Of a stretch of DNA of 64,000 bases, positions 11,310 to 62,827 are shown one piece after another (the stretch's first letter is position 1; each line of letters opens with the position of its first letter). Under the pieces are notes generated by a model, which was given only the letters and a program-made list of their open reading frames with translations, had not been told where the DNA came from and did not search any database. The position numbers were made by a program, and so were the translations under genes. The stretch is from a bacterium (GTDB taxonomy: Bacteria; Vulcanimicrobiota; Vulcanimicrobiia; Vulcanimicrobiales; Vulcanimicrobiaceae): positions 35,907-99,906 of the forward strand of contig JAJZED010000008.1 in the NCBI GenBank assembly GCA_021805775.1. Reading direction: 5' to 3'.

Positions 11310-11328
11310 AGGTGAAGCGGGAAGGATA

Positions 11329-11364
11329 CGAAGAGGCCGCCGGACTGATCCGGCGGCCTCTTCG
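11329..11364 (+). terminator. Perfect 16-bp hairpin, probable transcription terminator
   Basis: CGAAGAGGCCGCCGGA at 11329-11344 pairs perfectly with 11349-11364 around a CTGA loop, 20 bases after the membrane-protein stop. A clear U tract is lacking, so it may act only partly or in both directions, between this gene and the convergent 47-residue gene. Confidence 0.6.
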
Positions 11365-11412
11365 CTTGCTGCTACGTTTCGTTGAAGGAGACGTTCGTGA
11401 TTTGGAAAGAGA

Positions 11413-11556
11413 CTACGGTTTGCAGTTCACCAGTGCGAGTGCCCAACCCGCATCGGTTCGGGTCCGAACCAAATACCCTTCATTCGTGCGTTCGTACACT
11501 TGGTAACCTGCGCGTAACGCCTCTGCCAAGCTGGTGAAGACCATTACTCCGGACAT
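11413..11556 (-). CDS. Small protein of 47 residues, unknown function
   Basis: This minus-strand ORF starts MSGVMVFTSLAEALRAG and ends ALALVNCKP. It is preceded by a G-rich Shine-Dalgarno-like stretch (AAGGGGGG). The composition is protein-like: an amphipathic helix (SLAEALRAGYQVYE) followed by strands GYLVRTRT and GWALALV, suggesting a small alpha-beta fold. The start lies 120 bp from the divergent pyr operon start. I do not recognise a family. The balanced composition and ribosome-binding site make it more likely real than chance. Confidence 0.55.
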   Translation of the reverse strand: MSGVMVFTSLAEALRAGYQVYERTNEGYLVRTRTDAGWALALVNCKP

Positions 11557-11676
11557 TTGTCGGTCCCCCCTTTCCTACTGAGTCCTCCGACTCTACTACG
11601 TATAACGGCTAAAACGATGAGAAGGTTCAGTGATAATCCCGAGAGTTTTTTTAAGATTTGGAGAAAAAGCCTGCCC

Positions 11677-24940: not shown

Positions 24941-24954
24941 CCTCCGCCGCCTCT

Positions 24955-25569
24955 GTCACGCCGAGTAGATTGCGTTGTCACGCCGAGTAGATTGCGTTGT
25001 CACGCCGAGTAGGTTGCGAAGCAACCGTATCGAGGCGCCGCTTCTGTCACGCCGAGTAGATTGCGTTGTCACGCCGAGTAGATTGCATTTGTCACGCCGA
25101 GTAGATTGCATTTGTCACGCCGAGTAGGTTGCGAAGCAACCGTATCGAGGCGCCGCGTGCGCTTACGTTCGCCTGCGCTGCACCGCTCCTCGCTAGACGC
25201 TCGCGGCTCGGACAAGCAATGTCAGGGTCCTCGCCGCTCGCTTAAGCGCTCGTCGGATGCACGCAGGCTCCGCTCGCGCTCTCGGGTGCGCTCTCACGCC
25301 ATAGAAGCATTTGTCATGCCGAGTAGATTGCGTTGTCACGCCGAGTAGATTGCGTTGTCACGCCGAGTAGGTTGCGAAGCAACCGTATCGAGGCGCCGCG
25401 TGCGCTTACGTTCGCCTGCGCTGCACCGCTCCTCGCTAGACGCTCGCGGCTCGGACAAGCAATGTCAGGGTCCTCGCCGCTCGCTTAAGCGCTCGTCGGA
25501 TGCACGCAGGCTCCGCTCGCGCTCTCGGGTGCGCTCTCACGCCATAGAAGCATTTGTCATGCCGAGTAG
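24955..25569. repeat. Palindromic repeat array plus duplicated 215-bp segment
   Basis: About eleven copies of GTCAYGCCGAGTAG lie here, mostly spaced 22-23 bp. Some carry the hairpin GGTTGC-GAA-GCAACC followed by GTATCGAGGCG. A 215-bp stretch is duplicated without visible change at 25112-25326 and 25355-25569 (offset 243). The array fills the gap between the apt operon and relA. ORFs within it are chance readings of the repeats. It is the same family as bases 1-155. Confidence 0.9.
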
Positions 25570-25661
25570 GGCGCGTTCGCGGTCGTATCAGGCGCCCACC
25601 CTCGCCTCCGAGGTGACAATCGTCGCGGCTTTATGGCACAATGGAGCCATAGGCGAATGAA

Positions 25662-46641: not shown

Positions 46642-46817
46642 TCACCCTCGTCGCCTTGTCGTCACTCGGACGATTTGCGGCGCGGCCGGCCCGGTCGCGG
46701 CTTCAGCGACTCATCGGGGCTTCGAGGGCAGTAATGGCCCCACGGATTATCGAAATCCGGTTCGGGCGCCTAGTGGGCTTCGTCGCCTTTCGTTTGGGTG
46801 GCGCACATAGGAGGACT

Positions 46818-48356
46818 ATGCTAACCGGTGAGATTCGTAGCCAAATCGATAGTATTTGGAACGATTTTTGGTCGGGCGGTGTATCCAACCCGCTCTCCGT
46901 TATCGAGCAGATCACTTATCTGCTTTTTATCAAGCGCCTTGACGAACTTCAAACCCTTGAAGAAAAAAAGGCGTTAGTTCTCAAGCGACCGCTCGAACGC
47001 CCAACCTTCCCCGAGGGAAACGATCCGGAGGGGCGCCCTTACCGTGACCTTCGCTGGTCTGTTTTCAAGTCGTTTGAGCCACGCGAGATGTTCGCGGTCG
47101 TCGACCGGCACGTTTTCCCATTTCTGCAGCGCCTCGGCGGTGAAGGTTCCGCGTTCGCGCAGCACATGAAAGATGCGCGGCTCGCGATCGCGACCCCGGC
47201 GCTCCTGTCGAAGGCGGTCGAGAAGCTTGACGCTGTCCCGATGGAAGACCGCGACACCAAAGGCGACGTCTACGAGTATATGCTCGGCAAAATCGCTAGC
47301 GCTGGACAGAACGGGCAATTTCGGACTCCGCGGCACATCATCGCCTTAATGGTTGAACTCGTTGCGCCGACGCCGACCGACATCATCTGCGACCCGGCCG
47401 CCGGGACGTGCGGCTTCCTCGTCGCCGCTTCAGAGTATTTGCGGCGCGAGTACCCCGAGGTGATGCAAGACCCGAAGCTTCGCCAGCACTTCCACGATGA
47501 AGCGTTCAACGGCTTCGATTTCGACGCCACGATGCTGCGGATCGGCGCGATGAACATGATGTTGCACGGCGTCGAGGGTGCCAATGTGGCGTATCGCGAT
47601 TCGCTCGCGGAGGATCACACGGCCGACTCAGGCCACTACAGCGTCATTCTCGCGAATCCGCCGTTCGCGGGATCGCTCGACTACGAGGCGACCGCTAAAG
47701 ACCTCCAGCAGATCGTCAAGACGAAAAAGACCGAACTTTTGTTTCTGGCGCTCTTCCTGCGACTGCTAAAGGTCGGCGGTAGGGCCGCGGTCATAGTCCC
47801 TGAAGGCGTGTTGTTCGGCTCCTCCAAAGCGCACAAAGAACTGCGCCGCATGCTCATCGAGGATCACAAACTCGACGCGGTGATCTCGCTCCCGAGCGGT
47901 GTCTTCCGGCCGTACGCCGGTGTCTCTACAGCAATTCTGGTTTTCACGAAGACTGGCGTCGGCGGGACGGACTTCGTTTGGTTCTACGATATCGAGGCCG
48001 ACGGCTGGTCCCTCGATGACAAACGCCAACCGTTGCTAAGCGACGACAAGCTCGGCCCACGTCCAGCCGCGGCGTTAAACGAGGGAGAACATGGGAAAAA
48101 CAACCTCCCCGACGTTGCAACGCGTTGGCGCGATCGTGCAACGTCGGAATGCGACAGGCCACGCACCGCTCAAAGCTTCTGCATGGACAAAGCCGCGATC
48201 GCGGCAAACAACTACGATCTCTCGATCAATCGCTACAAAGAATCTAGCCACGAGGAGATCGACCACGCGTCGCCCGCTGAGATCATCGTCGAACTACGTC
48301 GGCTAGAAAGCGAAATCAGCGAGAGCCTTTCCCGGCTCGAAGAGCATATCGCATGA
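46818..48356 (+). CDS. hsdM: Type I restriction-modification DNA methyltransferase subunit (HsdM)
   Basis: 512 residues. An N-terminal helical HsdM domain (SQIDSIWNDFWSGGVSNPLSVIEQITYLLFIKRLDE) precedes the Rossmann methylase core with GQFRTPRHII, the SAM-binding DPAAGTCGFL (residues 192-201) and the catalytic NPPF (280-283), typical of N6-adenine methylation. The third SAM-loop Gly is Cys (GTCGF instead of GTGGF), also seen in some HsdM. AGGAGG before the ATG at 46818 fixes the start over an upstream open frame. It overlaps hsdS by 4 bp. Confidence 0.95.
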   Translation: MLTGEIRSQIDSIWNDFWSGGVSNPLSVIEQITYLLFIKRLDELQTLEEKKALVLKRPLERPTFPEGNDPEGRPYRDLRWSVFKSFEPREMFAVVDRHVFPFLQRLGGEGSAFAQHMKDARLAIATPALLSKAVEKLDAVPMEDRDTKGDVYEYMLGKIASAGQNGQFRTPRHIIALMVELVAPTPTDIICDPAAGTCGFLVAASEYLRREYPEVMQDPKLRQHFHDEAFNGFDFDATMLRIGAMNMMLHGVEGANVAYRDSLAEDHTADSGHYSVILANPPFAGSLDYEATAKDLQQIVKTKKTELLFLALFLRLLKVGGRAAVIVPEGVLFGSSKAHKELRRMLIEDHKLDAVISLPSGVFRPYAGVSTAILVFTKTGVGGTDFVWFYDIEADGWSLDDKRQPLLSDDKLGPRPAAALNEGEHGKNNLPDVATRWRDRATSECDRPRTAQSFCMDKAAIAANNYDLSINRYKESSHEEIDHASPAEIIVELRRLESEISESLSRLEEHIA

Positions 48357-49585
48357 CAGCTACATTGCTGCCACTCGGATCAGTCGCTGATTTCATTCGT
48401 GGAATAACGTTCAGACCCGACGACTTAGTCCCACCTGATGCAGATGCGACGGTCGCATGTTTTCGGACCTCAAATGTCCAGGAGGATATTGAGCTCGAGG
48501 ACGTTTGGTATTTGCCGCGGTCATTTGCACGTCGACCCGACCTCTTTCTGCGCGAGGGCGATATACTTATATCAACCGCCAACAGCTGGAATCTCGTCGG
48601 CAAATGTGCCTGGGTTCCCAGTCTTCAATATGATGCCGTTCCTGGGGGGTTTATCGCCGCCATACGAACGGACGAGACTAAGGCAAGTCCACGCTATCTG
48701 TTCCACTGGCTAAGATTGCCGCAAACTCAGAATTCCTTGCGCAACTGTGCGAATAAAACGACGAACATTTCCAACTTGAGCATCGAACGCTGCCTCACGC
48801 TTAAGCTCCCGCTGCCCCCGCTAGATGAGCAGCACAGAATTGCCACAATCCTCGACCAGGTCGACGACCTCCGCCGCAAACGCCGCCTCGCCCTCGAAAA
48901 ACTCAACGCCCTTCCGCAAGCCATCTTCCAAGAAATGTTCGGGGACCTGTTCTTGCGAGGTAGTTTTTCTCGACTCGACTCTCTTATCGACGAGGACGAT
49001 CGAATCAATTACGGCGTAGTTCAGCCAGGTTCGGAAAGCCCCGAAGGCGTCCCGCTCGTGCGCGTGGCTAATATCGTTACGAACAATTTTAAGCTTGAGT
49101 CGTTAAAGCGAATATCAAGGGCGATTGAATCCAAGTATAAGCGATCTCGTCTTCGCGGCTCCGAAGTGCTAGTCGCCTGTGTTGGATCGATTGGTTCTGT
49201 TTCGCTTGTAACCCCTGATCTCGCAGGAATGAACATAGCGCGCGCGGTTGCCCGCGTTCCCGTCGATCCTAAGAAAGCGAATCGCATTTTTATCGCCGCA
49301 TTTCTAAGGCTTCCACAAACGCAGCGTTACTTCGTTAGCGAAACCAGAACGGTTGCGCAACCGACCCTGAATATCAAACAATTGGCCGAGACGCTGATTC
49401 TCGATGCGCCGCGTGATCTTCAGGACGTCTTTGCTCAGCGTCTCAGAGCAAGTGACACAATTATTGCTCACTGCGAGAATAGCCTGAATAAAATGGACGC
49501 TCTGTGCGCCTCGCTGCAACACCATGCGTTCGCAGGGACGTTGACGTCAGCCCCCATCGAAGCCACGCTTTCGGCGGTTCGATGA
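48353..49585 (+). CDS. hsdS: Type I restriction specificity subunit (HsdS)
   Basis: 410 residues with two target-recognition domains separated by the conserved helix region. The first runs about 1-150 (LLPLGSVADFIRG) and ends with LPLPPLDEQHRIATILDQVDDLRRKRRLALEKL, the typical coiled spacer. The second, from about 200, ends with the shorter helix SDTIIAHCENSLNKMDALCASLQHHAFAG. Each domain reads one half of a bipartite site. The recognition sequence cannot be deduced. Lower GC than the flanks fits a transferred gene. Confidence 0.93.
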   Translation: MTATLLPLGSVADFIRGITFRPDDLVPPDADATVACFRTSNVQEDIELEDVWYLPRSFARRPDLFLREGDILISTANSWNLVGKCAWVPSLQYDAVPGGFIAAIRTDETKASPRYLFHWLRLPQTQNSLRNCANKTTNISNLSIERCLTLKLPLPPLDEQHRIATILDQVDDLRRKRRLALEKLNALPQAIFQEMFGDLFLRGSFSRLDSLIDEDDRINYGVVQPGSESPEGVPLVRVANIVTNNFKLESLKRISRAIESKYKRSRLRGSEVLVACVGSIGSVSLVTPDLAGMNIARAVARVPVDPKKANRIFIAAFLRLPQTQRYFVSETRTVAQPTLNIKQLAETLILDAPRDLQDVFAQRLRASDTIIAHCENSLNKMDALCASLQHHAFAGTLTSAPIEATLSAVR

Positions 49586-49589
49586 TGTA

Positions 49590-52500
49590 ATGATTACCCA
49601 ATTCACCTTCCTCGCCGCCGACTTCCCGGACATCATTACGCATGCCGTGACGGCAGAACGCGCAGCGCGATCGGATCCGCGCGCGGCGTGCTTTTATGCG
49701 CGCCTAGCGCTCGAAGTCGCGGTGAACTGGATGTTTGCGAACGACGGCACCTTGAAATCGCCTTACGAGAACACGCTCGCAGCTCGTATTCACGAACCAA
49801 CATTCCGGAAGGTCGTCGGGCTGGGACGCTTCGCCAGCGCGAATATCATCCGCGACTTCGGTAATATCGCCGTTCACGGTACAAGGTCGGTGCAAGAGGG
49901 ACAGGCCGTCGCATCGGTCCGTGAACTCTTCAATTTTACGTATTGGCTCGCATGGACGTATGGGCGGAGCCAGCCGGATCCGAGTTTGGCGTTTTCACCG
50001 GCTGCCCTCCCGCAAACGGAGCAAGTCGCGAAAGCCACATTGGCACAACTTCAGGAGATCGCTAGGAACTTCGCGGCCGCCATGGAGGCGCTGGACGAGG
50101 CAAAGATGACGCGGCTCAAAAGCGAGGAGCACCGCGCGACGCTTGAAGCGGAACTCGCCGCGGCCCGGGCGGAGATTGCCGCCGTCAAGGCCGCCAATGC
50201 AGCCAAGGCGGACACCCACGACTACAACGAAGCGGAAACCCGCGACACCTTTATTGATACCTTGCTTCACGAAGCGGGCTGGCCGCTCGATAAAGAACAG
50301 GATCGGGAATTCCCCGTGACTGGAATGCCGAACGGGAGCGGAAATGGTTTCGTCGACTACGTTTTGTGGGGTGACGACGGAAAGCCGCTCGCTGTCGTCG
50401 AGGCCAAGCGGACGCGCAAAGATGCACGGGTTGGTCAGCAGCAGGCGAAGCTCTACGCCGACTGTCTCGAAGCGCAGTCCGGGCAGCGCCCGGTTATCTT
50501 CTACACGAACGGTTACGAACATTGGATGTGGGATGACCTGCGATCGCCACCCCGGGCGGTGGAAGGGTTTTACACGAGGGACGAGTTGCAGCTCATCGTT
50601 CAGCGCCGCCAGACTCGGCGTTCACCGTCGGCGCTCGATGTCGATGAGAAAATCGTCGAACGATATTACCAACATCGCGCGATCCGCAGAGTGGTGGAGA
50701 GCTTCGACCGCGACGGTTTGCGCAAGTCGTTGCTCGTCATGGCGACGGGGGCGGGCAAGACGCGCACGGCCGTAGCGTTGTGCGACCTCTTGTTGCGCGC
50801 GAACTGGATAAAACGCGTGCTTTTTCTTGCCGATCGCCGCGCGCTCGTCAAGCAGGCCGTCGCTGCTTTCAAACAGCATCTGCCGAGCGCGACGACCGTC
50901 AATTTCCTTACGGAGAAAAACGGAAATGGCCGGATATACGTATCGACCTACGCGACGATGATGGGCTTGATAGATGAAAAGGTCGACGGTCGCCGACCGT
51001 TCGGAGTCGGGCACTTCGATCTCGTGATTATCGACGAAGCCCATCGTTCCGTCTACCGCAAGTACGGCGCGATTTTTTCGTATTTCGATAGCTACCTTAT
51101 TGGCCTAACCGCAACGCCGAAGGACGAAGTTGACCGAGACACCTACCGGCTTTTTGATCTCCAGCGTGGCCTTCCAACGGATACCTACAGCCTCGATGAA
51201 GCCGTGAGCGATGGCTTCTTGGTTCCGGCGAACGCGGTCTCGGTACCGTTGAAGTTCATCCGTGACGGGATGACCTACGACGACCTGACCGAAGAAGAAA
51301 AAGAAGAGTGGGACGAGATCGATTGGGGTGAAGGAGGGCCGCCGCAATCCATCGACGCCGGAGCGCTAAACACTTGGCTCTTTAACATCGATACGGTGGA
51401 CAAAGTGCTCGAGTATCTGATGACGCACGGCATTAAAGTTGCTGCCGGCGATCGCCTTGGGAAAACGATCATTTTTGCGAAGAACCTCAATCACGCGAAG
51501 TTCATCGTTGAGCGCTTCGACAAAAACTACCCCAACCTCAAGGGCTCGTTCGCGCGTGTGATCGACACGACGAACTCGTATGTCGAGAATTTGATTGACG
51601 ATTTTTCGAATCCCGATAAGGCTCCGCATATCGCCGTATCGATTGATATGTTGGATACAGGTGTCGACATCCCTGAGATCGTCAACCTCGTTTTCTTCAA
51701 AGTCGTTCGGTCGAAGACGAAGTTTTGGCAGATGCTTGGGCGCGGGACGCGCCTTCGCCCTGATTTATTTGGTGCAGGGTTTCCAAAGCAGTTCTTCTAC
51801 GTCTTCGACTTCTGCATGAACTTTGAATTTTTCAATCAGAGTCCGAAGATTGCGGACGCGGCGATTGGCGAAACCCTCGCAAAACGGTTGTTCACTGCGC
51901 GTGTCGAGCTGATCGATAGCATCCGCACCGGAGGCTCGGAAGACGCTAAGCTCGACGCGCTCTCGAAGGCCACTGCGGATGGGCTTCGGTCCGAGATTTC
52001 AGCGATGACGGTCGACAATTTCCTCGTCCGCCCGAAGCGGCAGTTCGTCGAAAAGTATTCGCAACCGGCCGCTTGGGAGAATTGGGACCTGGCCACGCGC
52101 TCCGATCTGGTGAGCGAACTTGCCGGTTTGCCAACGACGTTGGCTGATGATGATGTCGATGCAAAGGAATTCGATCTCCTAATATTGCGAACGCAACTTG
52201 CCTTACTGCGATCGGAAAATCGGTTTCTGGAACTGCAGCGAAAGATCCGAGACCTTGCCGGCGCCTTAGAGGCAATTAGTAACATTCCGATGGTCGCGGC
52301 GGAGCTCGAGCTCATTCACGAGATTCAGACCGACGACTTTTGGCAAGACACCACCGCGCCAATGCTGGAACCGATTCGGCTTCGGCTGCGAAGTTTGATA
52401 AAGCTACTCGAATTCAAGAAGCGTGCACTTGTGGTGACAGATTTCACCGACGAGATCGGAATCGGAACCAAGTTTTCGTTCCTGGGCTCGCAGGTTGGTG

Positions 52501-52970
52501 CCGACATCGAACGGTTCCGCGCAAAAGCGCGGCAATTCTTCAAAGCTCACGCGGATCACATTGCGATCGCCAAGGTACGCCGTAACGAGCAGCTGACACC
52601 GTCCGACATCGCAGAGCTCGAACGCATGTTTAACGACGAAGGCCTTGGCGCTCGTGCCGAGATCGAGCGCATAAAGGCACAGGGCGGCCTCGGACTATTT
52701 ATCCGGTCGCTGGTTGGCATCGATCGGGAAGCGGCGAAGGCCGCTTTCGGCGGTTTCCTTGCCGGCCGGACATTGACGGCCAACCAGCTGGAGTTCGTGA
52801 ACATGCTCATCGAGCATCTTACCGCACGCGGGGTTGTCGACCCGGGTCTTTTATACGAATCGCCGTTCACGGACGTCGACCCGATGGGCGTCTCGGGCGT
52901 CTTTTCGGACGCCGACGCGTCGCAGATCGTCGACATTCTCGAAAAGGTCCGAAAGAATGCGGCGGCGTAG
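49590..52970 (+). CDS. hsdR: Type I restriction endonuclease subunit (HsdR) with N-terminal DUF4145-like domain
   Basis: 1126 residues. The first about 110 residues (ARLALEVAVNWMFAN, LGRFASANIIRDFGNIAVHG) look like a DUF4145 domain, followed by a coiled-coil. The PD-(D/E)xK nuclease region shows FVDYVLWGDDGKPLAVVEAKRTRKDA near residue 260. The SF2 translocase has Walker A MATGAGKT (about 384), DEAH (about 481) and LGRGTRLRPDLFG. The C-terminus matches the EcoEI R-type domain. It cuts unmethylated DNA after translocation, together with HsdM and HsdS. Confidence 0.94.
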   Translation: MITQFTFLAADFPDIITHAVTAERAARSDPRAACFYARLALEVAVNWMFANDGTLKSPYENTLAARIHEPTFRKVVGLGRFASANIIRDFGNIAVHGTRSVQEGQAVASVRELFNFTYWLAWTYGRSQPDPSLAFSPAALPQTEQVAKATLAQLQEIARNFAAAMEALDEAKMTRLKSEEHRATLEAELAAARAEIAAVKAANAAKADTHDYNEAETRDTFIDTLLHEAGWPLDKEQDREFPVTGMPNGSGNGFVDYVLWGDDGKPLAVVEAKRTRKDARVGQQQAKLYADCLEAQSGQRPVIFYTNGYEHWMWDDLRSPPRAVEGFYTRDELQLIVQRRQTRRSPSALDVDEKIVERYYQHRAIRRVVESFDRDGLRKSLLVMATGAGKTRTAVALCDLLLRANWIKRVLFLADRRALVKQAVAAFKQHLPSATTVNFLTEKNGNGRIYVSTYATMMGLIDEKVDGRRPFGVGHFDLVIIDEAHRSVYRKYGAIFSYFDSYLIGLTATPKDEVDRDTYRLFDLQRGLPTDTYSLDEAVSDGFLVPANAVSVPLKFIRDGMTYDDLTEEEKEEWDEIDWGEGGPPQSIDAGALNTWLFNIDTVDKVLEYLMTHGIKVAAGDRLGKTIIFAKNLNHAKFIVERFDKNYPNLKGSFARVIDTTNSYVENLIDDFSNPDKAPHIAVSIDMLDTGVDIPEIVNLVFFKVVRSKTKFWQMLGRGTRLRPDLFGAGFPKQFFYVFDFCMNFEFFNQSPKIADAAIGETLAKRLFTARVELIDSIRTGGSEDAKLDALSKATADGLRSEISAMTVDNFLVRPKRQFVEKYSQPAAWENWDLATRSDLVSELAGLPTTLADDDVDAKEFDLLILRTQLALLRSENRFLELQRKIRDLAGALEAISNIPMVAAELELIHEIQTDDFWQDTTAPMLEPIRLRLRSLIKLLEFKKRALVVTDFTDEIGIGTKFSFLGSQVGADIERFRAKARQFFKAHADHIAIAKVRRNEQLTPSDIAELERMFNDEGLGARAEIERIKAQGGLGLFIRSLVGIDREAAKAAFGGFLAGRTLTANQLEFVNMLIEHLTARGVVDPGLLYESPFTDVDPMGVSGVFSDADASQIVDILEKVRKNAAA

Positions 52971-53506: not shown

Positions 53507-54292
53507 ATGTTCAATCGCCTGCCCGAGCCAGATACTACCCCCCTGGGTAATTCGCCCCTCGGTCTCGTTCTCTGCACCCTTGCTATCGATGAGGAACGGC
53601 CGCTCAAATCGCGTGACGCAACTCAATGGCAGCGTCGCCTGGCCGAGGCCTATTCGGCAGGGTCGCTAAATCGCGTCATTCAGCAAACCGTCAATCTCCG
53701 CATGGGCCCCCTTGGGGCTCAGGCGACCGGACAGCCCGAAATGCAGGAAGGGTGGCGTCTGGTACGGCGTGACGGCGCTGGCTATGCCGAGATGTTTGCC
53801 GGTAGCTGCACCGTCGCCGCGACGAGGTTCCCGGGGTTCGTAGTATTTCGCGAACAGTTGCGCGCCGTTTGGGCTGTCTACGCAGATATTCTCGATCCGC
53901 AGGTACGATCGCGCCTATCGATCCAGTACTTTAATGCCCTTAGCGAAGAGGGCGCCACGTCGGCTACGTATTGGGAAACACGTGTCCACGAGCGCTTCCT
54001 GGGGTTGGCCGCTGACGAGCGGTTTGCCGATATGCTAACTAACGAAATGGGAATCGTCGATTTTCAGGGTGAGCGGTTCTCATGTCGTTTGCGGCATGCG
54101 ATCCAGGCGGACGCCGCGATTGCCGGCAACATAGCGTACGTGTTCGACATCGAGGTTAAGGATGAAGCGCCGGTCGATCTCGATATGGCAGCATCGCTTG
54201 AGGAAGTTGAGCAGATGAACCGCGGTGCGCTTCAGATGTTTCAGGCCGTGCTAACGGAAAACTATTTACGCGAGCGCCGCGCAGATGTCTAA
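53507..54292 (+). CDS. TIGR04255-like protein, unknown function
   Basis: 261 residues. The overall plan (N-terminal short strand block, a middle with VVFREQLRAVWAVYADILDPQVRSRLSIQYFNAL, and a C-terminal DLDMAASLEEVEQMNRGALQMFQAVLTENYLRER helix pair) resembles TIGR04255, a conserved family often found near regulators in accessory regions, with no proven function. I cannot confirm the match without a profile search. The gene may be leaderless and overlaps the next by 8 bp. Confidence 0.6.
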   Translation: MFNRLPEPDTTPLGNSPLGLVLCTLAIDEERPLKSRDATQWQRRLAEAYSAGSLNRVIQQTVNLRMGPLGAQATGQPEMQEGWRLVRRDGAGYAEMFAGSCTVAATRFPGFVVFREQLRAVWAVYADILDPQVRSRLSIQYFNALSEEGATSATYWETRVHERFLGLAADERFADMLTNEMGIVDFQGERFSCRLRHAIQADAAIAGNIAYVFDIEVKDEAPVDLDMAASLEEVEQMNRGALQMFQAVLTENYLRERRADV

Positions 54293-55268
54293 ACGCACGT
54301 CGCTAGTTTCCCCACCGCCCTTTGGCAATAGCTTGGCCGCGGTCGATGTTGCCGCAATGGCAGGGTATATGGTCGAGGAGCAGGCCACGGCTTTGATCGA
54401 CTACGACGACTGGAGGACGTGGCGCCTTGCGCCTGAGCTGATAGGCTCCAATAGTAACTCGCTGTATGCGCGGCCGCCGCGCAACCTTAATCTTACCGAC
54501 GCCCATGCCGCGGTTCAGACGATGGGTTCTATGTTTGTTGATTCCGAATCCCTTTACGACATCATCGCATCTCAGCTTGACGTAGTGGAGCACGTTGTTA
54601 GTGATGCCGGCGTTTCCTCGCATGTTCTCGAAGTTGCGGACACGGTGCTTGAGGAAGGGGCCGATCGGGCGCGTGCCCATGCGGCGAATATAGATCGCTT
54701 CCGGGAGCAGTTTCGCGTGCGATTTACACGTGGCAGCGAGTCGCAGCCAGCGCCTTCTGAGGTGGTAATCAATCGGCTCGTCGACGATAAACCTTCGTTT
54801 CAGGTTCTACGGCATACCGAAACGGCGCCTGGCGAAGCTGTTGTTAATACTGCGTCGCGCGAGGACTATTGGGGGAAGATTCGTTCGTCATTACAGCGTT
54901 GGCTCGGACTCTCACTCGAGGATCTGGCCAAGCTACTCGACTTGTCCAAGGCTACGATAGTATACATCAACGCCCCCGACCGTAAGGTGCGGCCGATGAC
55001 AGCGAATAAAGTGCTTAATCTCTACGGCACCGTTGTGCCAATGGTTGAGGCGAAGGGCGAGGAATATACCCGTGCGTGGTTCGCAGCCACGGGTCGTGCC
55101 GCACTCGACCGAGGAACAGTCCAACTTGAGCGAGAGATAAGGTCAATTTTGGCGCGCGGCCGCATAAACGCAGAAGCGATAGCGATATCGCTGGAACCGG
55201 ACACCGATGTTGACGAGGAAGCTCCTGAGCCCGGACCCGTTCGTGCGCAAGGAATCCCCATTCATTGA
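54285..55268 (+). CDS. Protein with C-terminal helix-turn-helix, unknown function
   Basis: 327 residues. The N-terminal 200 residues are unrecognised. Residues about 210-255 (LQRWLGLSLEDLAKLLDLSKATIVYIN) form a clear helix-turn-helix of the Xre/MbcA (DUF2384-type) kind, followed by KVLNLYGTVVPMVEAKGEEYTRAWF, which is like the antitoxin DUF2384 helical core. A regulator or antitoxin role is suggested by this. It overlaps its neighbours at both ends, by 8 and 4 bp. Confidence 0.6.
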   Translation: MSKRTSLVSPPPFGNSLAAVDVAAMAGYMVEEQATALIDYDDWRTWRLAPELIGSNSNSLYARPPRNLNLTDAHAAVQTMGSMFVDSESLYDIIASQLDVVEHVVSDAGVSSHVLEVADTVLEEGADRARAHAANIDRFREQFRVRFTRGSESQPAPSEVVINRLVDDKPSFQVLRHTETAPGEAVVNTASREDYWGKIRSSLQRWLGLSLEDLAKLLDLSKATIVYINAPDRKVRPMTANKVLNLYGTVVPMVEAKGEEYTRAWFAATGRAALDRGTVQLEREIRSILARGRINAEAIAISLEPDTDVDEEAPEPGPVRAQGIPIH

Positions 55269-56125
55269 ACGCGGCACCCTTTTTGCTGAAAAAGACCTAT
55301 ACGTGGCCGGACGACGTCCTTGCCGCGCTTGAAGCAATTGATCAAGGCACCGTTATCCACGCGGTGCCTTGCGTATACACCGCAAATGGGAAGGTAGGCA
55401 TTACTGCCGAGGCACGCGAGGTAACGCCCGAGGGCGAAGGTGCGGTAATTCTCGATGAAATATCCGTGATTGTTCTTTCACAGACTTGCGACATCCGTGG
55501 CGGTCCTGCCCGTCGGAACCCGCTGCTGGCCGTTGCTCCGGTATACCCCGTGAAGCTAATTGACCTCGGTTTGGCGCGGAACCCAGGATCGATTGCCAAT
55601 GCGAAATACTTGTGTCGGCTGACCGGACCGGGATTGCAAGACGACGTGTATGTTGCCGACCTCCGTTTCGAGTTTACGATCGAGAAGAGTATGGTTGTTG
55701 GGCGGCGAGTTGAGCCAGGCTTTGCCGACATCGACAGCGCCTACACGTTTGCAAAGGTGCTTGGCGAACACCGCCGACGTGGGGCGTTCTCGCGCGGCCT
55801 AGAAGACCTCTTGCAATCGCTTGGGAAGTTCCTCCAGGAGAACGCCCTAGACGACCAGTTTTACGAGGTCCGCGTCTTCCCGCAACCATCGGCAGCAAGG
55901 GCAGATCGCGCGTCGATTTTGTGTATCAGTAATAGTCTTTCGAAGCAGCAAATTGTCGAGATTACCGAAATTCTCTCGTCATGGGTCCAAATTGCCGAGC
56001 AATTGAAATTCATTGAGCTGACGGGCTTCGATGTTCGCGATATCTGCGAAGTGACGTTGGCGGAAGTCGTCGACAGCTTGCCATTTTACTATCGAGAGTT
56101 GAGTGAGGATCCACCAGCACCGTAG
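55265..56125 (+). CDS. Unknown protein with SQTCD motif
   Basis: 286 residues from a TTG overlapping the preceding stop. It contains ISVIVLSQTCDIRGG near residue 75, a recurring motif in an uncharacterised protein group in which Cys and Asp are invariant, and LVVPVYPV-like strands after it. The C-terminal half is helical (LEDLLQSLGKFLQENALDDQFYEVRVF). I do not know its function. In the three-gene cassette it would be the third and possibly effector component; this is inference. Confidence 0.55.
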   Translation: MNAAPFLLKKTYTWPDDVLAALEAIDQGTVIHAVPCVYTANGKVGITAEAREVTPEGEGAVILDEISVIVLSQTCDIRGGPARRNPLLAVAPVYPVKLIDLGLARNPGSIANAKYLCRLTGPGLQDDVYVADLRFEFTIEKSMVVGRRVEPGFADIDSAYTFAKVLGEHRRRGAFSRGLEDLLQSLGKFLQENALDDQFYEVRVFPQPSAARADRASILCISNSLSKQQIVEITEILSSWVQIAEQLKFIELTGFDVRDICEVTLAEVVDSLPFYYRELSEDPPAP

Positions 56126-56490: not shown

Positions 56491-56552
56491 ATTCGTTAAG
56501 TTCGGTTAGTCCACTGACGAACGAAAAACGCCTGTCCGATCTGGGATTGAGG
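56482..56552 (+). repeat. Right copy of conserved structured motif
   Basis: The 44-base block (56482-56525) is a direct copy, 40/44 identical, of 46527-46570. The spacer to the invariant GGATTGAGG (56544-56552) is again exactly 18 bases but unrelated in sequence. A hairpin follows at 56559-56585. Same order and spacing as the left copy. Confidence 0.8.
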
Positions 56553-56558
56553 CCGAGA

Positions 56559-56585
56559 ACGGGCCCGCGCATCGAGCGGGCCCGT
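56559..56585 (+). terminator. 10-bp GC-rich hairpin after the right motif
   Basis: ACGGGCCCGC at 56559-56568 pairs perfectly with 56576-56585 around GCATCGA. There is no U tract and the next ATG is 25 bases on, so it could be a leader or attenuator stem of that gene rather than a terminator. Confidence 0.5.
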
Positions 56586-56609
56586 GTCGATTCCCGAGCG
56601 GAAGGCGAC

Positions 56610-57044
56610 ATGCGGCCGCGCTCGAAACGACCTCGTATGATCGACTGCCCGGAGTGTGATACTTCCGTTACGGGGAACGCAGGTTTTTGCACGAATTGCG
56701 GGCGGATGCTTCAGGCAGCGAACTCGCAGGGCCTCTCCGACTACCTCTCTGTGGTCGGCGGAGTTTTCCTCGGAGCCGTCGCGGCATGGGTTCTCAATAA
56801 CATGCTCGTCGGCCCGCTATCGCTTGCCATCCTTTTCACGACCACCCACCCGAATGAGGCAGCGCAACGCGTTGCGACCTTTCATTTGGTGCTTGGAATA
56901 GGGCTCCTGATCGGCATGCTTGTGTCGATCGTGCGCCGCCTTCGAATGCACACGTTGCTCGGCGCCTCGCTCTACACCACCGCCTTTGTTTTGGGCATCG
57001 GCTACACGCTTACGGCAGCATCCTCGCTGACCGCCATGCGATGA
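56610..57044 (+). CDS. Zinc-ribbon membrane protein
   Basis: 144 residues. An N-terminal zinc ribbon (MIDCPECDTSVTGNAGFCTNCGRML, four Cys) is followed by three membrane helices (VVGGVFLGAVAAWVLNNMLV, FHLVLGIGLLIGMLVSIV, SLYTTAFVLGIGYTLTAA). GGAAGG precedes the ATG at 56610; an internal ATG at 56637 is possible. It is coupled to the next gene, a related zinc-ribbon membrane protein, by ATGA. Function unknown. Confidence 0.72.
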   Translation: MRPRSKRPRMIDCPECDTSVTGNAGFCTNCGRMLQAANSQGLSDYLSVVGGVFLGAVAAWVLNNMLVGPLSLAILFTTTHPNEAAQRVATFHLVLGIGLLIGMLVSIVRRLRMHTLLGASLYTTAFVLGIGYTLTAASSLTAMR

Positions 57045-57466
57045 CTTGCCCGAACTGTGGTGCTGCTGGCGATGCAGATATACGCTATTGCGCGAACTGC
57101 GGCTACGCGGTCAATGCACCGCCGCGAAGCGCATCGGGGCGCGGAATCTTAGAATCCGGTACAGCTGGATTTCTAACAGGAATATTTACATCGCCGTTCT
57201 TCTATGTGGCCATATTGTCGTTCGGGAGCGCCTCCTTCGGTAATATAGGGCCGCCCCCGCCAAATACCGAATTTGGGGTTGCAAGAGGAGAGGCAGATTT
57301 CGATATGGTCGTGTCAATCGTTCTTGCGCTCTCGTTGATGGTGTTGTTCGTCTTTCAACGGCAAATGCGTCCGTTCTTACGGGCGTTCGCCATCACGGTC
57401 GCCTTTCTCTTACTCGGTGGCTTTTTGCTCTGTGACGTCTTCGTATATAGCGCGCTTGGCAACTAG
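57041..57466 (+). CDS. Zinc-ribbon membrane protein
   Basis: 141 residues. Opens with a zinc ribbon (TCPNCGAAGDADIRYCANCGYAV) and has hydrophobic segments (GFLTGIFTSPFFYVAILSF, MVVSIVLALSLMVLFVF, FAITVAFLLLGGFLLCDVFVY). It probably pairs with the preceding gene in the membrane. It is followed 35 bp later by the Lgt-like gene. Function unknown. Confidence 0.72.
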   Translation: MTCPNCGAAGDADIRYCANCGYAVNAPPRSASGRGILESGTAGFLTGIFTSPFFYVAILSFGSASFGNIGPPPPNTEFGVARGEADFDMVVSIVLALSLMVLFVFQRQMRPFLRAFAITVAFLLLGGFLLCDVFVYSALGN

Positions 57467-57501
57467 CGGTACCATCGTTAGCCCCATGGAGGTTCGCAGC
57501 G

Positions 57502-58212
57502 TTGGAATTCTTTGAAACTCATCTCCGAGCGTTCGTCGCCGCCCCGATCTACGGCCTCGCGTACCTCGTCGCGGCGCTCGTCTTCTGGCGTGTCGCCCGG
57601 CGACGGAATATGGCTACCGATGGGATATCCGTGCTTCTGGTAGTCGGGCTTGTCGGTGGTTTGGCGGCGGCTAATCTCGCGCAACTGATCTTTACGGGCC
57701 AGCCAGGCAAAAGCATTGAGGGCGGGATCGCCGGCGGGTGGATCGCGGTCATACTCGCAAAGCGCTATCTGCGCATTCGTCGCCCGACCGGCGATCTCTT
57801 CGCGCTCGCAATTTCGGCCGGAGAGTCGATAGGACGGATCGCGTGCTTCATCGGCGGCTGCTGTTACGGCAAAGCCGCCACGCTCGCATGGGCGACCTAC
57901 GAACGCGGCGCGCTTCGCCAGCCGACGCAGCTCTATCTCGCGGCGTGGGCGGCGCTGACTTATGGCCTCCTTGTCGTGCTCGACCGACGGCGGGTGCTGC
58001 CGGAGAACGGTTTGTTCATCGTGCAAGGGCTGCTTTTTTGTTCCGGGCGGTTCGTTATTGAATTTTACCGCGCCGCTCCAGCATTTGCCTTCAGCTTAAC
58101 CGCCGCGCAACTCGGCGCACTCGCCGGCATCGTCGTATTCGGAACGCTCGCCCTGCGGATGCACGCACGAACGCGGCAGACTTCTCGCGCGCTCGCGGCG
58201 GCTTCTGCATGA
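57502..58212 (+). CDS. Lgt-like (prolipoprotein diacylglyceryl transferase family) membrane protein
   Basis: 236 residues from a TTG with GGAGG about nine bases upstream. It has seven or so membrane helices and the family region SAGESIGRIACFIGGCCYG plus RQPTQLYLAAWAALTY. Canonical Lgt has GRxGNFIN-E and an essential His; here it is GRIACFIGGCCYGK, so it is a divergent homologue, not the housekeeping enzyme, and might act on another glycerophospholipid reaction. It overlaps the radical SAM gene by 4 bp. Confidence 0.75.
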   Translation: MEFFETHLRAFVAAPIYGLAYLVAALVFWRVARRRNMATDGISVLLVVGLVGGLAAANLAQLIFTGQPGKSIEGGIAGGWIAVILAKRYLRIRRPTGDLFALAISAGESIGRIACFIGGCCYGKAATLAWATYERGALRQPTQLYLAAWAALTYGLLVVLDRRRVLPENGLFIVQGLLFCSGRFVIEFYRAAPAFAFSLTAAQLGALAGIVVFGTLALRMHARTRQTSRALAAASA

Positions 58213-59720
58213 CGTTAGCAACGCACGACTATACGCTCCTGAAGAGCGTACGTGCGGTCTGCCCGCGATGCTTTGAGGAAAACGAAAACTTCGACCCTCA
58301 ATACCCGATCGACATCTGCGACGGCCATCTCGTCGAACGCGAAGGGCGCGTTTTCTTGCGTCGACATTGCCGCCGCGGGCACGGCGAGGTGTGGTCGCTC
58401 TACGAAGAAAACGCCGAACTCTGGCGCTATCTCCAGCAGTGGCGCGTTCCGACGAAGATCGTCAACCCCGACACCGAAACGATCTATCCCGTCCCGACCG
58501 GCTACGAGTACGGTTTAGGGCCGGCGCATTTGCAGCATTCCTGTATCTATCTGCTCGACATCACGACGCAGTGCAACCTCGAATGCCCGGCTTGTTACGC
58601 GAGCTCGAGCCCGGCATTCTCACACTACCTGCCGCTCGATGCGATCCTCCATGCCGTCGAGCGAGCGATCGAGCGGGAAGGAGGGCGGATCGATGTCGTC
58701 ATGCTCTCCGGAGGCGAACCTACCGTCCATCCGCAATTTCTCGAAATCGTCGAACGGCTCGCTGCACTTCCGGTAACCCGCGTACTCATCAATACCAACG
58801 GCATTCGCTTGGCGAACGAGGACGCTCTTCTCGGTGTCGTCGCCGGATTGCGAGACCGCGTCGAAGTCTATCTTCAATACGATGGGCAGAGCAAAGCGAC
58901 GCACGAGCGGATGCGTGCCGACGATCTGACGGAAGTAAAGGCGCGTGCCGTCGAACGGCTGAGCGGGCAACGTATTTTCACGACGCTCGTGATGACGGTC
59001 GACCGCTATAATGCCGGCCAGATCGGCGAGGTACTCGATACGGCTTTTGCGACGCCCTACGTCGGCGGCGTGATGTTCCAACCGCTGTTCGCTTCGGGAC
59101 GCGCGCCGCAACTCGATCCGATGGCGCGCATTACGACGACCGGCGTGCTCGAGCGTATCGAAGAACAGTCGAGCCACGGTCTCCGCGCACGCGACCTCAT
59201 CGCGCTCCCCTGTAGCCACCCGGACTGTTGCTCGATCGGTTATTTCCTCAAGGGGAAGGACGATCGTTTCGTCGGCCTGGCATCGCTTCTCGGCGAGGAA
59301 TCGTTGCGAGGATCGCTCAGCATTTTCGGCAATCAAATTGCTTTTAGCGAGGGACTTGAGGAGGTTCGAGCGGCGCTGACCGGCGTGATGTCGGAGAGCA
59401 TGACCCTCTCGCGCCCCGAGTTGGTGAAGCACTTGCGTACGCTGTGCAGCACGTGTGGTGTCGGCGGTCTCGGAGATCTGCTGCGCGCCGCATTCGGCGG
59501 CAATGCGACGGCTCGCTTCGTCGGCGAGCGCGTGAAGCGCGTCACCATTAAGCATTTCATGGACGCTCATACGCTGATTACCGAACGGTTGGAGCAGTGC
59601 TGCGTTCACGTCGCGGGCGCTGGGAATGACCCGGTGCGGATGCCGTTCTGTGCGGCACGACTTTTTCCAAAGGTCCGTGCGCGAGCGCGGGAAGGGATGG
59701 TAACGCGTGGATCGCTCTGA
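58209..59720 (+). CDS. Tes-like radical SAM protein
   Basis: 503 residues. An N-terminal cysteine/histidine set (C18, C21, C54, H58) looks rubredoxin-like. The radical SAM cluster motif CNLECPAC is at 122-129, followed by MLSGGEPTVHP. The C-terminal region has CSHPDCC, CSTCGVGG and the FMDAHTLITERLEQCCVHV-RMPFCAA ending. These features resemble archaeal tetraether synthase (Tes; MJ0619 family), which couples lipid tails. Bacterial relatives are known but few are characterised. Substrate here is unproven. Confidence 0.8.
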   Translation: MTLATHDYTLLKSVRAVCPRCFEENENFDPQYPIDICDGHLVEREGRVFLRRHCRRGHGEVWSLYEENAELWRYLQQWRVPTKIVNPDTETIYPVPTGYEYGLGPAHLQHSCIYLLDITTQCNLECPACYASSSPAFSHYLPLDAILHAVERAIEREGGRIDVVMLSGGEPTVHPQFLEIVERLAALPVTRVLINTNGIRLANEDALLGVVAGLRDRVEVYLQYDGQSKATHERMRADDLTEVKARAVERLSGQRIFTTLVMTVDRYNAGQIGEVLDTAFATPYVGGVMFQPLFASGRAPQLDPMARITTTGVLERIEEQSSHGLRARDLIALPCSHPDCCSIGYFLKGKDDRFVGLASLLGEESLRGSLSIFGNQIAFSEGLEEVRAALTGVMSESMTLSRPELVKHLRTLCSTCGVGGLGDLLRAAFGGNATARFVGERVKRVTIKHFMDAHTLITERLEQCCVHVAGAGNDPVRMPFCAARLFPKVRARAREGMVTRGSL

Positions 59721-59970
59721 GCGAGGGACAACGTTCGAGGGGTGGGCGTTTACCTTCTGCAAAGCCGCTTTTTTGGCGCTGCTTTGCGGGAAGTACGCCG
59801 TACTGGTGCTTTCGCTGGCCGCCGCGGCGCTCTACATCGCGGCATACGCCATGGGAGTGCGAAGTTGGCGCTGCTGGGTGAAGCCGCCGTGGGTGGTGAT
59901 CTTTTTCATCGCGGTCATCATCGCGCAAGTCTATTTTCTATTCTTTCACCATCCGCAGTGGGTGCTGTAG
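59707..59970 (+). CDS. Small membrane protein
   Basis: 87 residues from a GTG overlapping the radical SAM stop. Two hydrophobic stretches (FCKAAFLALLCGKYAVLVLSLAAAALYIAAYAMG and WVVIFFIAVIIAQVYFLFF) indicate a two- or three-helix membrane protein. As third gene of the Lgt-Tes set it may help the lipid enzyme. No family recognised. Confidence 0.6.
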   Translation: MDRSERGTTFEGWAFTFCKAAFLALLCGKYAVLVLSLAAAALYIAAYAMGVRSWRCWVKPPWVVIFFIAVIIAQVYFLFFHHPQWVL

Positions 59971-59993
59971 CGCTCTCGACGAAAATCCCCGCC

Positions 59994-60398
59994 ATGAATC
60001 GCCTTGCTTTCGTCACGACGTCGGCTGCGGGCGCACTCGCGGCCTCGGCAAAACCGCCCTCGGCGCGCGCGGTCGCCGGCCTGACCGGAGACTGGAGCAG
60101 CACCGCGAGCGGTGAAGGCTCCTGCGGAGACTCCGTCGGGCGCTTCCAACTGACCGTGACGCAGTCGGGGAAGAGCGTTACCGGGTCGTACTACGGTGGA
60201 ACGGCCTCGCTTTCAGGCACGCTCGACGGCAACGTGCTGGTGGGTACGTGGAAAGAAACCGACGGAACCGGCTCGCTGCGCTTTATCTTCTCCGACGACC
60301 GCAACGCGTTCGAAGGAAGTTGGAGCATTCCGGGTTCGACGTCGATGGGGGGCTGGAGCGGCGAGCGGGCGCAGCCGTCGCTGCCCGCGACCCCCTAA
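59994..60398 (+). CDS. Small secreted beta-barrel-like protein
   Basis: 134 residues with an N-terminal export signal (LAFVTTSAAGALAASAK). The rest alternates strand and turn (GKSVTGSYYGGTASLSG, NVLVGTWKETDGTGSLRFIF, SFEGSWSIPGS-like) and resembles small META/lipocalin-like or avidin-like barrels. No conserved ligand motif seen. It ends 3 bp before the convergent lipoprotein stop. Confidence 0.6.
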   Translation: MNRLAFVTTSAAGALAASAKPPSARAVAGLTGDWSSTASGEGSCGDSVGRFQLTVTQSGKSVTGSYYGGTASLSGTLDGNVLVGTWKETDGTGSLRFIFSDDRNAFEGSWSIPGSTSMGGWSGERAQPSLPATP

Positions 60399-60401
60399 GC
60401 G

Positions 60402-62042
60402 TTACGTGCTCGGGTAGGTGTTGCCGGCGGCGGCATTATACAGCGGCTGGTTCGGAATCGGGGTGAGACACTCCGAGCACGGGTCGCAGGACACGGTTCG
60501 CACCGTCAGCAAGGGCTCGACGAGATAGCTGATCGTGCAATTCGTATGCGTGGTACCGGTCCACGTTGAATTGACGTGGTCCCACGTGTCGAAACCGACG
60601 TCGCAGTTCGCGGCGTTGCAGTCGAGATAGGTGACGTTCGACGCAACGGTATTCTTAAAGTTGGGGCGCGGATCCGGAGCCCATCCGAATCCGATCCCGC
60701 GCATGTCGGGTACGTGGTTATCGTTCTGCACCGATACGTTCGATGCGTTGCAATTGGTGAATCCGATCGCGGGTCCCCACGAGCTAAAGCCCGCAGCCTG
60801 CAGGTCTTCGGGGTTAATCGCGCGGATGTCATTCGCAGTGCAATCCGTCGCGGTAATGCCTCCCAAACTATAGACTTCAAGCCCGGTCGCTTTTGCTCCG
60901 GAGGCGGGATGCGTTGCGAGGTCGTTGGAACCGTCAAGAACGCGCGTCGCGCTGAAGCTTTGAACGCTGCTCAACCAACAGAGAAAGAACGACATTCCAT
61001 GTGCGTCGTCGCAGCACCCGGTGATATCGGCCGCGGAACAATTCTGAAACGCTAAATTATTGCAGAATGTCGGTAGGAAGCCGATCGTCGTATGCCCTGA
61101 TGTCAGCACGTTGCTGTGGAAAAACGACTGAAGCGCCAAAGCTGTGCAGCCTGTCGTCGTCACGTAGGCGCAGCCGAGATAGCTGAAACCTTTCACGCCG
61201 CCGTCGTTATTCGTAAGTGCGTTTGCCGTACAATTGGTAATTGTCGAGAGATTCGTCGAGACCAATTGAAAGCCCGCGCTCGCGTCGGTCGTGACATTCA
61301 TATTCGTGACGCTGCAATTGGCGATCGCAACATCTTGCCCGTTCATAGCGAGAATGCCGCTGGGCGTGAGCTCGCGCACGTTGAGGTTTTGCATACAGAG
61401 GCCCGTGACCGTGAGGTTCGAGACGGCGAGGCCGCAGACGCCCGAGGCAAAAACCCCGTGCTCGGTAAACGACGCGAGGGTGCCGTTGGCGATCGTGACG
61501 TTGTCGACCGGCCCTACGACGCTGATGGCGCTGATCTGTGCGCTCTTATCGGCGATCGCTGCCGATAACGTGTAGCCGCCGAGATCGAGCGTGACGTTGC
61601 TGGCTTGAATTGTTATCGCCGCCATCGCGCTCGTGCTCGGGCTCCACGTGAGGTTGCCGCCGAGCGTGTACGTGCCGGGTGAGGTGATGCAGATCCCCGA
61701 GCTCGGAATAGACAAGATCGTGTTACCCTGCTGCACCTGTCCGCACGACGCGCTCAGGTAACGCCGATGGAGCGCTTCAAGCGCCGGTGCGACGTCGAAC
61801 GTATCGAGCAACCACTGCTTGTCGAGATGCGCGAGGGCCGGGTGCGAGAGGACGCCGTCTAAGCCGTATCGGCCGAACGAATTCGTCGGAAGCGGGACGC
61901 AGAGCCCGGTAAGCGGCGTCGGCGTGGCAATCGGGCTCGGCATCGAGCCTCCGCCTCCACCGCCGCACGCAGCGAGTGTGCCGGTTGCAAGAACGCCTTG
62001 GATCAATCGTGCCCGGGAAATATAATTTCCGTGCTCCGACAT
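60402..62042 (-). CDS. Lipoprotein with parallel beta-helix (Asn/Cys-rich)
   Basis: 546 residues; ATG at 62042 with a weak ribosome-binding site. Signal MSEHGNYISRARLIQGVLA ends in lipobox TLAACGGGG. The body has many short N-containing repeats (SNLTVTGLCMQNLNV, VAIANCSVTNMNV, NCTANALTNNDG), typical of right-handed parallel beta-helix/NosD-like proteins. About 25 Cys residues are spread regularly, unusual for the family. Follows the TlpA-like gene by 11 bp. Confidence 0.75.
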   Translation of the reverse strand: MSEHGNYISRARLIQGVLATGTLAACGGGGGGSMPSPIATPTPLTGLCVPLPTNSFGRYGLDGVLSHPALAHLDKQWLLDTFDVAPALEALHRRYLSASCGQVQQGNTILSIPSSGICITSPGTYTLGGNLTWSPSTSAMAAITIQASNVTLDLGGYTLSAAIADKSAQISAISVVGPVDNVTIANGTLASFTEHGVFASGVCGLAVSNLTVTGLCMQNLNVRELTPSGILAMNGQDVAIANCSVTNMNVTTDASAGFQLVSTNLSTITNCTANALTNNDGGVKGFSYLGCAYVTTTGCTALALQSFFHSNVLTSGHTTIGFLPTFCNNLAFQNCSAADITGCCDDAHGMSFFLCWLSSVQSFSATRVLDGSNDLATHPASGAKATGLEVYSLGGITATDCTANDIRAINPEDLQAAGFSSWGPAIGFTNCNASNVSVQNDNHVPDMRGIGFGWAPDPRPNFKNTVASNVTYLDCNAANCDVGFDTWDHVNSTWTGTTHTNCTISYLVEPLLTVRTVSCDPCSECLTPIPNQPLYNAAAGNTYPST

Positions 62043-62053
62043 CGCTTCAGGAC

Positions 62054-62827
62054 CTATGGCGCCGTGATGCCGAGCTTGCGAAGTTGCGCTGCGATTGGAT
62101 TCATCGAACTGTAATACCCCGTGATGTCGGCGCGGACGATTCCATGCCCATCGATCACAAACGTATGCGGCAGCGCAAGATAGGTTGGCGTCGTTTTCCC
62201 TGACGGCGAAGCGGATGCGTGAGGCGAAGCGCTTGCGTGCGGCGAAGCGGATGCGTGCGGCGCAACCGTGCCCCCCGGTGAGAGCACGACATGATGTGCC
62301 GAGGCGTATGCGAGGCACTGGGCATCCGTGTGTCCTTTGCAATAGGTTGCCACCTTCGAAACGATCGGGCGAATGAAGGCCGGGACTTTATTGCCTGACT
62401 GCGCGAAAATCGCGGGGAGCGTCTCGGGCGTGACGCCGTTGAGATGGAGTGTCATGTTCGGATCGGGGACATTCGCCTTCACAGGCGGCAGCGCAGTATT
62501 CGACGGGCGGTCGCTCACCACGGGAAATGGAATGTGGAACTTCTTTACGAGCGCTCTTCCGGCCGTAGGATTATCCATGTAATCGACGCCGAGAAAATCG
62601 ACGCGTCCTTTGAAGCGTTTGTAGTCGGCGACGACCTGCGGCAGTTCCTCGACGCAGCCGATGCACCACGAAGCGAAGGCAACGATCACGAGCGGTCGCC
62701 CCGCGGAGGCCGGAAGCCCGATTGCGGGCTTTCCAATCTGCAGGGCGCCGAGGTGAAAGGGCGCTCGAGGCATCGTTGCCAGGAGCAATACGGCAAGCGA
62801 TGCAATCGCTACAAAACGCAATTTCAT
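62054..62827 (-). CDS. TlpA-like thioredoxin-fold protein
   Basis: 257 residues. An N-terminal export signal (RFVAIASLAVLLLATMP) leads to the thioredoxin core RPLVIVAFASWCIGCVEELPQVV with a redox CxxC (C55, C58), and the later LPHTFVIDGHGIVRADITGYYS (cis-Pro region). It would reduce or exchange disulfides outside the cytoplasm. A proline/serine/histidine insert (HASASP repeated, 62206-62259) lies before the last domain. It may help the Cys-rich neighbour fold; inference. Confidence 0.82.
   Translation of the reverse strand: MKLRFVAIASLAVLLLATMPRAPFHLGALQIGKPAIGLPASAGRPLVIVAFASWCIGCVEELPQVVADYKRFKGRVDFLGVDYMDNPTAGRALVKKFHIPFPVVSDRPSNTALPPVKANVPDPNMTLHLNGVTPETLPAIFAQSGNKVPAFIRPIVSKVATYCKGHTDAQCLAYASAHHVVLSPGGTVAPHASASPHASASPHASASPSGKTTPTYLALPHTFVIDGHGIVRADITGYYSSMNPIAAQLRKLGITAP
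62206..62259 (-). repeat. Three tandem 18-bp units in the TlpA-like gene
   Basis: Units begin GGCGAAGCG on the plus strand and encode PHASAS repeats. The composition is like the lipoprotein repeat at 18491-18634, a flexible linker that may vary in length. Confidence 0.75.

Follow-up and report, generated by a model that had tools for sequence, protein, structure and literature searches.

A conserved gene cassette pairing a Tes-superfamily radical SAM protein with a divergent Lgt paralogue in Ca. Eremiobacterota, with a possible role in membrane-lipid remodelling

Does a bacterial radical SAM gene that resembles tetraether synthase (Tes) and overlaps a gene of the diacylglyceryl-transferase (Lgt) family encode a synthase of membrane-spanning lipids, as a sequence-only reading of this locus had proposed, or does it serve another purpose? 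The bacteria that make such lipids and the enzymes they use matter for brGDGT palaeothermometry, and similarity alone has been the ground for including bacterial Tes homologues among candidate lipid synthases (PMC8941075, PMC11868695). We focus here on this gene pair and its surroundings in a 64-kb stretch of DNA (the window, to whose numbering all positions refer unless a contig is named), which belongs to a 2.59 Mb genome of Ca. Eremiobacterota, the phylum being taken from named relatives. The host is an uncultured soil bacterium of a little-studied phylum.

Five genes run in the same direction in the window. The first, zn1 (56547–57044, +), is an open reading frame of 165 residues with a weak Pfam zinc-ribbon match and, by hydropathy, at least two hydrophobic segments; its true start is probably the ATG at 56611 or that at 56637. 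It overlaps by 4 nt the second gene, zn2 (57041–57466, +), whose product has a zinc ribbon and three transmembrane segments by Pfam and hydropathy and ends in GGFLLCD. After a gap of 35 nt comes LgtL (57502–58212, +), a divergent Lgt paralogue of 236 residues recognised from its Pfam LGT match, a residue table and its orthologues; it starts with TTG, and direct reading places a GGAGG ribosome-binding site (57488–57492, +) 9 nt upstream. LgtL overlaps by 4 nt the gene for a Tes-superfamily radical SAM protein of 503 residues (rSAM; 58209–59720, +), and this gene overlaps by 14 nt TM87 (59707–59970, +), which encodes 87 residues with two transmembrane helices predicted from hydropathy. The sequence-only reading had described an Lgt homologue overlapping a 503-residue radical SAM gene, with a small membrane protein behind it, and all of this holds, Pfam matching both LGT and Radical_SAM; zn1 and zn2 upstream in the same run had been missed, as had a canonical Lgt elsewhere in the genome.

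First of all, what can LgtL still do? Its membership of the Pfam LGT family is secure (80.9 bits against a gathering threshold of 24.9, E=1e-22), and its TIGR00544 equivalog score of 44.1 bits lies below the cut-off of 118.9. In E. coli Lgt, R143 and R239 are essential and, with E243 and R246, bind phosphatidylglycerol (PG) and activate its C3-O bond; mutants of H103 (HGGL) and of E151 (in the signature motif) are inactive, and H103 has been proposed to serve the acceptor cysteine (PMC4728403). LgtL retains Y26, Y30, D129, R143, G154, R239, E243 and R246 (E. coli numbering) and has H103 changed to E, N146 to C, E151 to C and E202 to L; this mapping was made on sequence alone, the AlphaFold model of LgtL giving no significant PDB match, Lgt included. 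The same pattern extends to all LgtL proteins aligned, in which H103 has become E or L, N146 is C and E151 is C or A, while R143, R239, E243 and R246 are present almost throughout; Y26 is retained in those of Eremiobacterota and is H in the actinobacterial ones. We infer that LgtL is still able to handle PG in some role other than that of an ordinary lipobox transferase, ordinary Lgt activity being unlikely because the catalytic His103 is lost. A plain duplication of Lgt was rejected, since no aligned copy retains H103 or E151 and the same genome has a canonical Lgt (G000:C3:49443-50225) with every residue that LgtL has lost.

Second, the partnership of LgtL and rSAM recurs. Orthologues of rSAM (at least 67% identity, or a comparable long fragment) are present in 19 of 149 Ca. 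Eremiobacterota genomes, those in the 18 genomes other than the window's being 67–79% identical, apart from a 269-residue fragment that is 98% identical; LgtL orthologues (at least 50% identity) occur in 17 of the 149. Both genes are present in 16 genomes, rSAM alone in 3, LgtL alone in 1 and neither in 129 (Fisher p=1e-17, ignoring kinship), and where both are present they are adjacent in 15 of 16; in genome G018, LgtL and TM87 lie on a different contig from rSAM. Among the three genomes with rSAM alone, one has the gene at a contig end and two are 82–84% complete, and the single LgtL without rSAM also stands at a contig end. TM87 is found in 16 of the 149 genomes, every one a cassette carrier, and zn2 homologues sit inside the cassette in several. 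Because 18 further genomes of the phylum have orthologues and gene order is conserved, the LgtL-rSAM-TM87 set is not a chance grouping; the order also varies between LgtL-zn-rSAM-TM87 and rSAM-TM87-zn-LgtL, which speaks for selection to stay together and not for mere inheritance of a neighbourhood. The genes are inherited together as a cassette. It is missing from nine genomes of the window's own genus, and in genome G089, assigned to another genus, 3.1 kb of contig C265 is 96% identical to window positions 58911–62021, which fits recent transfer or mis-binning. The cassette is thus an old accessory unit that has sometimes moved.

Outside Ca. Eremiobacterota the cassette is known from plasmid records. 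The closest matches of rSAM in the plasmid collection come from Nonomuraea gerenzanensis, Mycobacterium avium (pS2b) and M. branderi (pJCM12687), with 44% identity over 95% of the length, and all three adjoin an Lgt-family gene, with small multi-transmembrane proteins between or beside them. The pairing with a glycerolipid-type transferase, to which a lipid role had first been tied, is conserved across two distant phyla, and a shared role involving glycerolipid is therefore reasonable. On the two mycobacterial plasmids, two related small transmembrane proteins without a Pfam name share GLGLxIGWALxSIxxxGxCTGLNP. The literature searched yielded no description of an Lgt-radical SAM cassette. Viral carriage was rejected, a search of viral contigs for the cassette giving no match and phages giving a weak match at the level of the core.

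Within the window the cassette adjoins a type I restriction system in a lower-GC stretch. This system is complete (hsdM, hsdS and hsdR; 46656–52970) and is followed at 53507–56125 by a TIGR04255 protein and two uncharacterised proteins, in a variable, low-GC segment with conserved flanks. At the corresponding site the congener G002 has 5.7 kb of unrelated genes between the same flanks, apparently encoding a cytosine methyltransferase and a Vsr-like nuclease. The cassette lies near groEL in G019, G087, G102 and G103 (recognised by reading), and groEL/groES are found beside it in several relatives; a role in defence was rejected on this ground and because PADLOC matches the rSAM core to viperin in no more than a weak and generic way. 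Elsewhere in the window, short repeated units at 24954–25594 (matches of roughly 40–110 bp) also occur in G002, and a large open reading frame at 60402–62342 (−), with an apparent lipobox (LAAC), Asn/Thr-rich repeats and no Pfam match, reads like a surface lipoprotein.

Third, how close is rSAM to Tes? It matches Pfam Radical_SAM (E=3e-18) and carries CPRC...CRRGH at its N terminus, CNLECPAC, and CCVH...PFC at its C terminus; residues 40–484 match the Tes crystal-structure sequence 7tol over nearly its whole length (E=4e-33). The best PDB match of its AlphaFold model (pLDDT 66, from a shallow alignment) is Tes 7tom at full length (TM 0.64–0.65, E=5e-22), other radical SAM enzymes matching over the core only. 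Residues were mapped onto MJ0619, with reference cluster ligands from PMC9433317. The rubredoxin site C18/C21/C54/H58 is equivalent to Tes C9, C12, C33 and H36, with an insertion and with C-X3-H in place of C-X2-H, and the RS cluster CX3CX2C is formed by C122/C126/C129, so that the rubredoxin-like cysteines and the CNLECPAC noticed in the sequence-only reading are both present and both map onto Tes. The SAM-pocket residues Y195, D199, R210, Q268 and R275 of Tes are retained, S271 being F. Among the C-terminal cysteines (C335/C340/C341/C413/C416/C464/C465/C481), equivalents of Tes C338, C455/C456 and C470 are retained; from conservation we infer C338, C455 and C470 to be ligands of the C-terminal cluster in Tes. 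The additional C335, C341, C413 and C416, of which C341 is specific to the rSAM clade, point to a possible further metal site within the C-terminal half of the protein. The region of the lipid-binding pocket is poorly conserved, and the AlphaFold model is weak there.

A Tes-fold radical SAM protein that adjoins a PG-handling transferase and small membrane proteins argues for a role in lipid remodelling, and the reading we favour, with our confidence evenly balanced, is that the cassette remodels membrane lipids by Tes-type chemistry on a PG-derived lipid, judging from its parts and their linkage. LgtL would take the diacylglyceryl group of PG and either transfer it to some acceptor that is not a lipobox cysteine or present it to rSAM. 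rSAM would then abstract a hydrogen from a saturated acyl-chain carbon, the carbon radical would be held at its C-terminal [4Fe-4S] cluster, as in Tes, and a C-C (or C-S) bond would be formed on the lipid, while TM87 and the zinc-ribbon proteins may tether rSAM, otherwise soluble, to the membrane. The reaction could join two chains end to end into a membrane-spanning lipid, an outcome that we regard as somewhat unlikely overall; alternatively, the new bond could form inside a single lipid or link it to a small acceptor. Homology to Tes and its fold, the conserved clusters and SAM pocket, the PG residues of LgtL, the tight linkage, the recurrence of the pair in Actinobacteria and the iso-branched fatty acids of a cultivated member of the phylum all count for remodelling, and Tes binds ordinary bacterial phospholipids non-specifically (PMC9433317). 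Against it count the position of rSAM, which by score, by shared cysteines and in the tree is closer to TrsS-like proteins than to Tes, the loss of its N-terminal cluster cysteines, and the H at the position of Y26 in actinobacterial LgtL.

The closeness to TrsS raises a different possibility, which we consider unlikely, namely that rSAM is a TrsS-like enzyme for the synthesis of a cofactor or small molecule, and that LgtL has lost lipid transfer and serves as a scaffold or transporter in the membrane. rSAM scores higher against NCBIfam TrsS (NF045646, 210.1 bits) than against Tes (NF045702, 168.9 bits), and C335 with C413/C416, in the motifs PCxxPxC and CxxC, is common to most TrsS-like proteins and absent from Tes. 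The TrsS score, on the other hand, is far under the cut-off of 490, and the rSAM frame is open without TGA, leaving no selenocysteine. The TrsS-like relatives examined, from Mycolicibacterium and haloarchaea, adjoin a methyltransferase, whereas the neighbours of rSAM are LgtL and membrane proteins, with no methyltransferase among them; furthermore, LgtL retains catalytic arginines that a mere scaffold would not need. These radical SAM and methyltransferase pairs are borne on haloarchaeal and Mycolicibacterium plasmids, and the haloarchaeal TrsS-like copies also lack the N-terminal cluster cysteines.

The small membrane proteins could themselves be the substrate, rSAM cross-linking or modifying one of them and LgtL lipidating it in a lipoprotein-like or RiPP-like maturation, which we hold to be distinctly unlikely. 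Cysteines are the natural target of Lgt, and TM87 has invariant ones in its invariant motifs FTFCKAAF and WRC(W/F)(V/A)KPPW; a cysteine near the C terminus is conserved in zn2 and in the actinobacterial small proteins, the zinc-ribbon proteins having a conserved C-terminal GG-x-x-C. However, LgtL is without His103, to which a role in serving the acceptor cysteine has been ascribed (PMC4728403), no lipobox is present in TM87 or the zinc-ribbon proteins, and the best fold match of rSAM is Tes and not a peptide-modifying radical SAM enzyme.

Finally, rSAM is Tes-like as a full-length member of the Tes superfamily, by sequence and by predicted fold, but it is not Tes itself, which its score (168.9 bits against a cut-off of 450) and residues rule out. 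In 12 of 12 members of the rSAM clade aligned, the cysteines of the N-terminal auxiliary [4Fe-4S] cluster (Tes C73, C77 and C80) are all replaced, Met439 is K and Tyr459 is V. Both of the latter are invariant in 1000 archaeal Tes homologues, and the MJ0619 variants M439A and Y459F/L remain active (PMC9433317), so these changes speak against Tes identity and not against Tes-type coupling chemistry. The CCVH/PFC pattern, earlier taken as a mark of Tes, is present but does not indicate Tes, because the whole superfamily has it, TrsS-like proteins included; nor are C338, C455 and C470 diagnostic, most TrsS-like relatives carrying them too. In a maximum-likelihood tree with few Tes and TrsS references, the LgtL-linked rSAM proteins form a clade of their own (100/100) on a long branch, with Tes apart (100/99), and the AU test of a joint clade of the two gives p=0.08 with all rows and p=0.023 without two long branches.

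The phylum has a genuine Tes elsewhere. In genome G057 a true Tes homologue (G057:C214:15000-29584, positions 10768–12342) scores 560 bits, above the NF045702 cut-off, and PF09989, which we take to be the marker domain of Ger/PlsA proteins, occurs twice, in open reading frames of about 1420 residues. Ger/PlsA proteins are linked to bacterial membrane-spanning ethers. PF09989 is absent from 10 of 10 cassette genomes searched, so the window organism is unlikely to make ether-linked brGDGTs by way of Ger, though it could make tetraesters; from gene content, G057 would be a better candidate maker of membrane-spanning ether lipids. Iso-branched fatty acids predominate in the phylum's one cultivated member (PMC9758169), and their termini are similar to those of the chains that Tes joins (PMC8941075). 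A true bacterial synthase that joins two phospholipid tails end to end, as first proposed for this locus, can draw on these fatty acids and on radical-cluster and C-terminal cysteines and a SAM pocket as in Tes, and is improbable in view of the failed score, N-terminal cluster and invariant residues, the separate clade, the missing Ger/PlsA marker in ten cassette genomes (though tetraesters need none) and the presence of real Tes in a genome that has that marker.

Membrane-lipid remodelling could also take a more far-reaching form, which we offer as a long shot: a further, Ger-independent bacterial route, in two phyla, to cross-linked and possibly membrane-spanning lipids, in which the end of a tail would be activated at the C-terminal cluster of rSAM and would receive a PG-derived diacylglyceryl group from LgtL, perhaps via a thiol, giving a C-C or thioether-linked product. 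The natural acceptor of Lgt is a thiol. Under limiting SAM, Tes builds up a lipid that contains sulfur (PMC9433317).

The cassette probably remodels membrane lipids by an undescribed route. Its conserved tie to an Lgt paralogue without the acceptor histidine is a concrete substrate clue for the rSAM clade, and the link between LgtL and rSAM suggests functions for Lgt-fold enzymes beyond the lipidation of proteins. Since a whole clade of Tes matches lacks the Tes-defining features and has partner genes of its own, counts of bacterial Tes homologues should separate that clade.

Among the closest known systems are the cassettes of Nonomuraea, M. avium and M. branderi, with the same rSAM clade, an Lgt-family protein with N146C and H103L, and small multi-transmembrane proteins; they differ in having Pro-rich tails that replace the zinc ribbon, and in TM87, for which Nonomuraea has an uncertain homologue and the mycobacterial genes have none beside them. 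With Lgt (PF01790, E. coli 5azb), LgtL has in common the family, Y26, R143, R239, E243, R246 and G154, whereas it is without H103, N146, E151 and E202, has a short periplasmic head and is a second copy besides the canonical enzyme. TrsS (NF045646) gives rSAM its best NCBIfam score and shares PCxxPxC and CxxC in the C-terminal half; rSAM, on the other hand, falls below the cut-off, has no selenocysteine and no N-terminal cluster, and is partnered by LgtL and not by a methyltransferase. Tes (GDGT-MAS; MJ0619, 7tol/7tom) shares with rSAM full-length homology, the rubredoxin domain, the RS cluster, the SAM-binding residues and the C-terminal cysteines, and differs in having C73/C77/C80, M439 and Y459, where rSAM has extra cysteines, an Lgt-like partner and a separate clade. 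Mss, reportedly a bacterial membrane-spanning lipid synthase for which Sahonero-Canavesi and colleagues are said to have proposed, in 2022, the radical coupling of bacterial fatty-acid chains, resembles the cassette in proposed chemistry.
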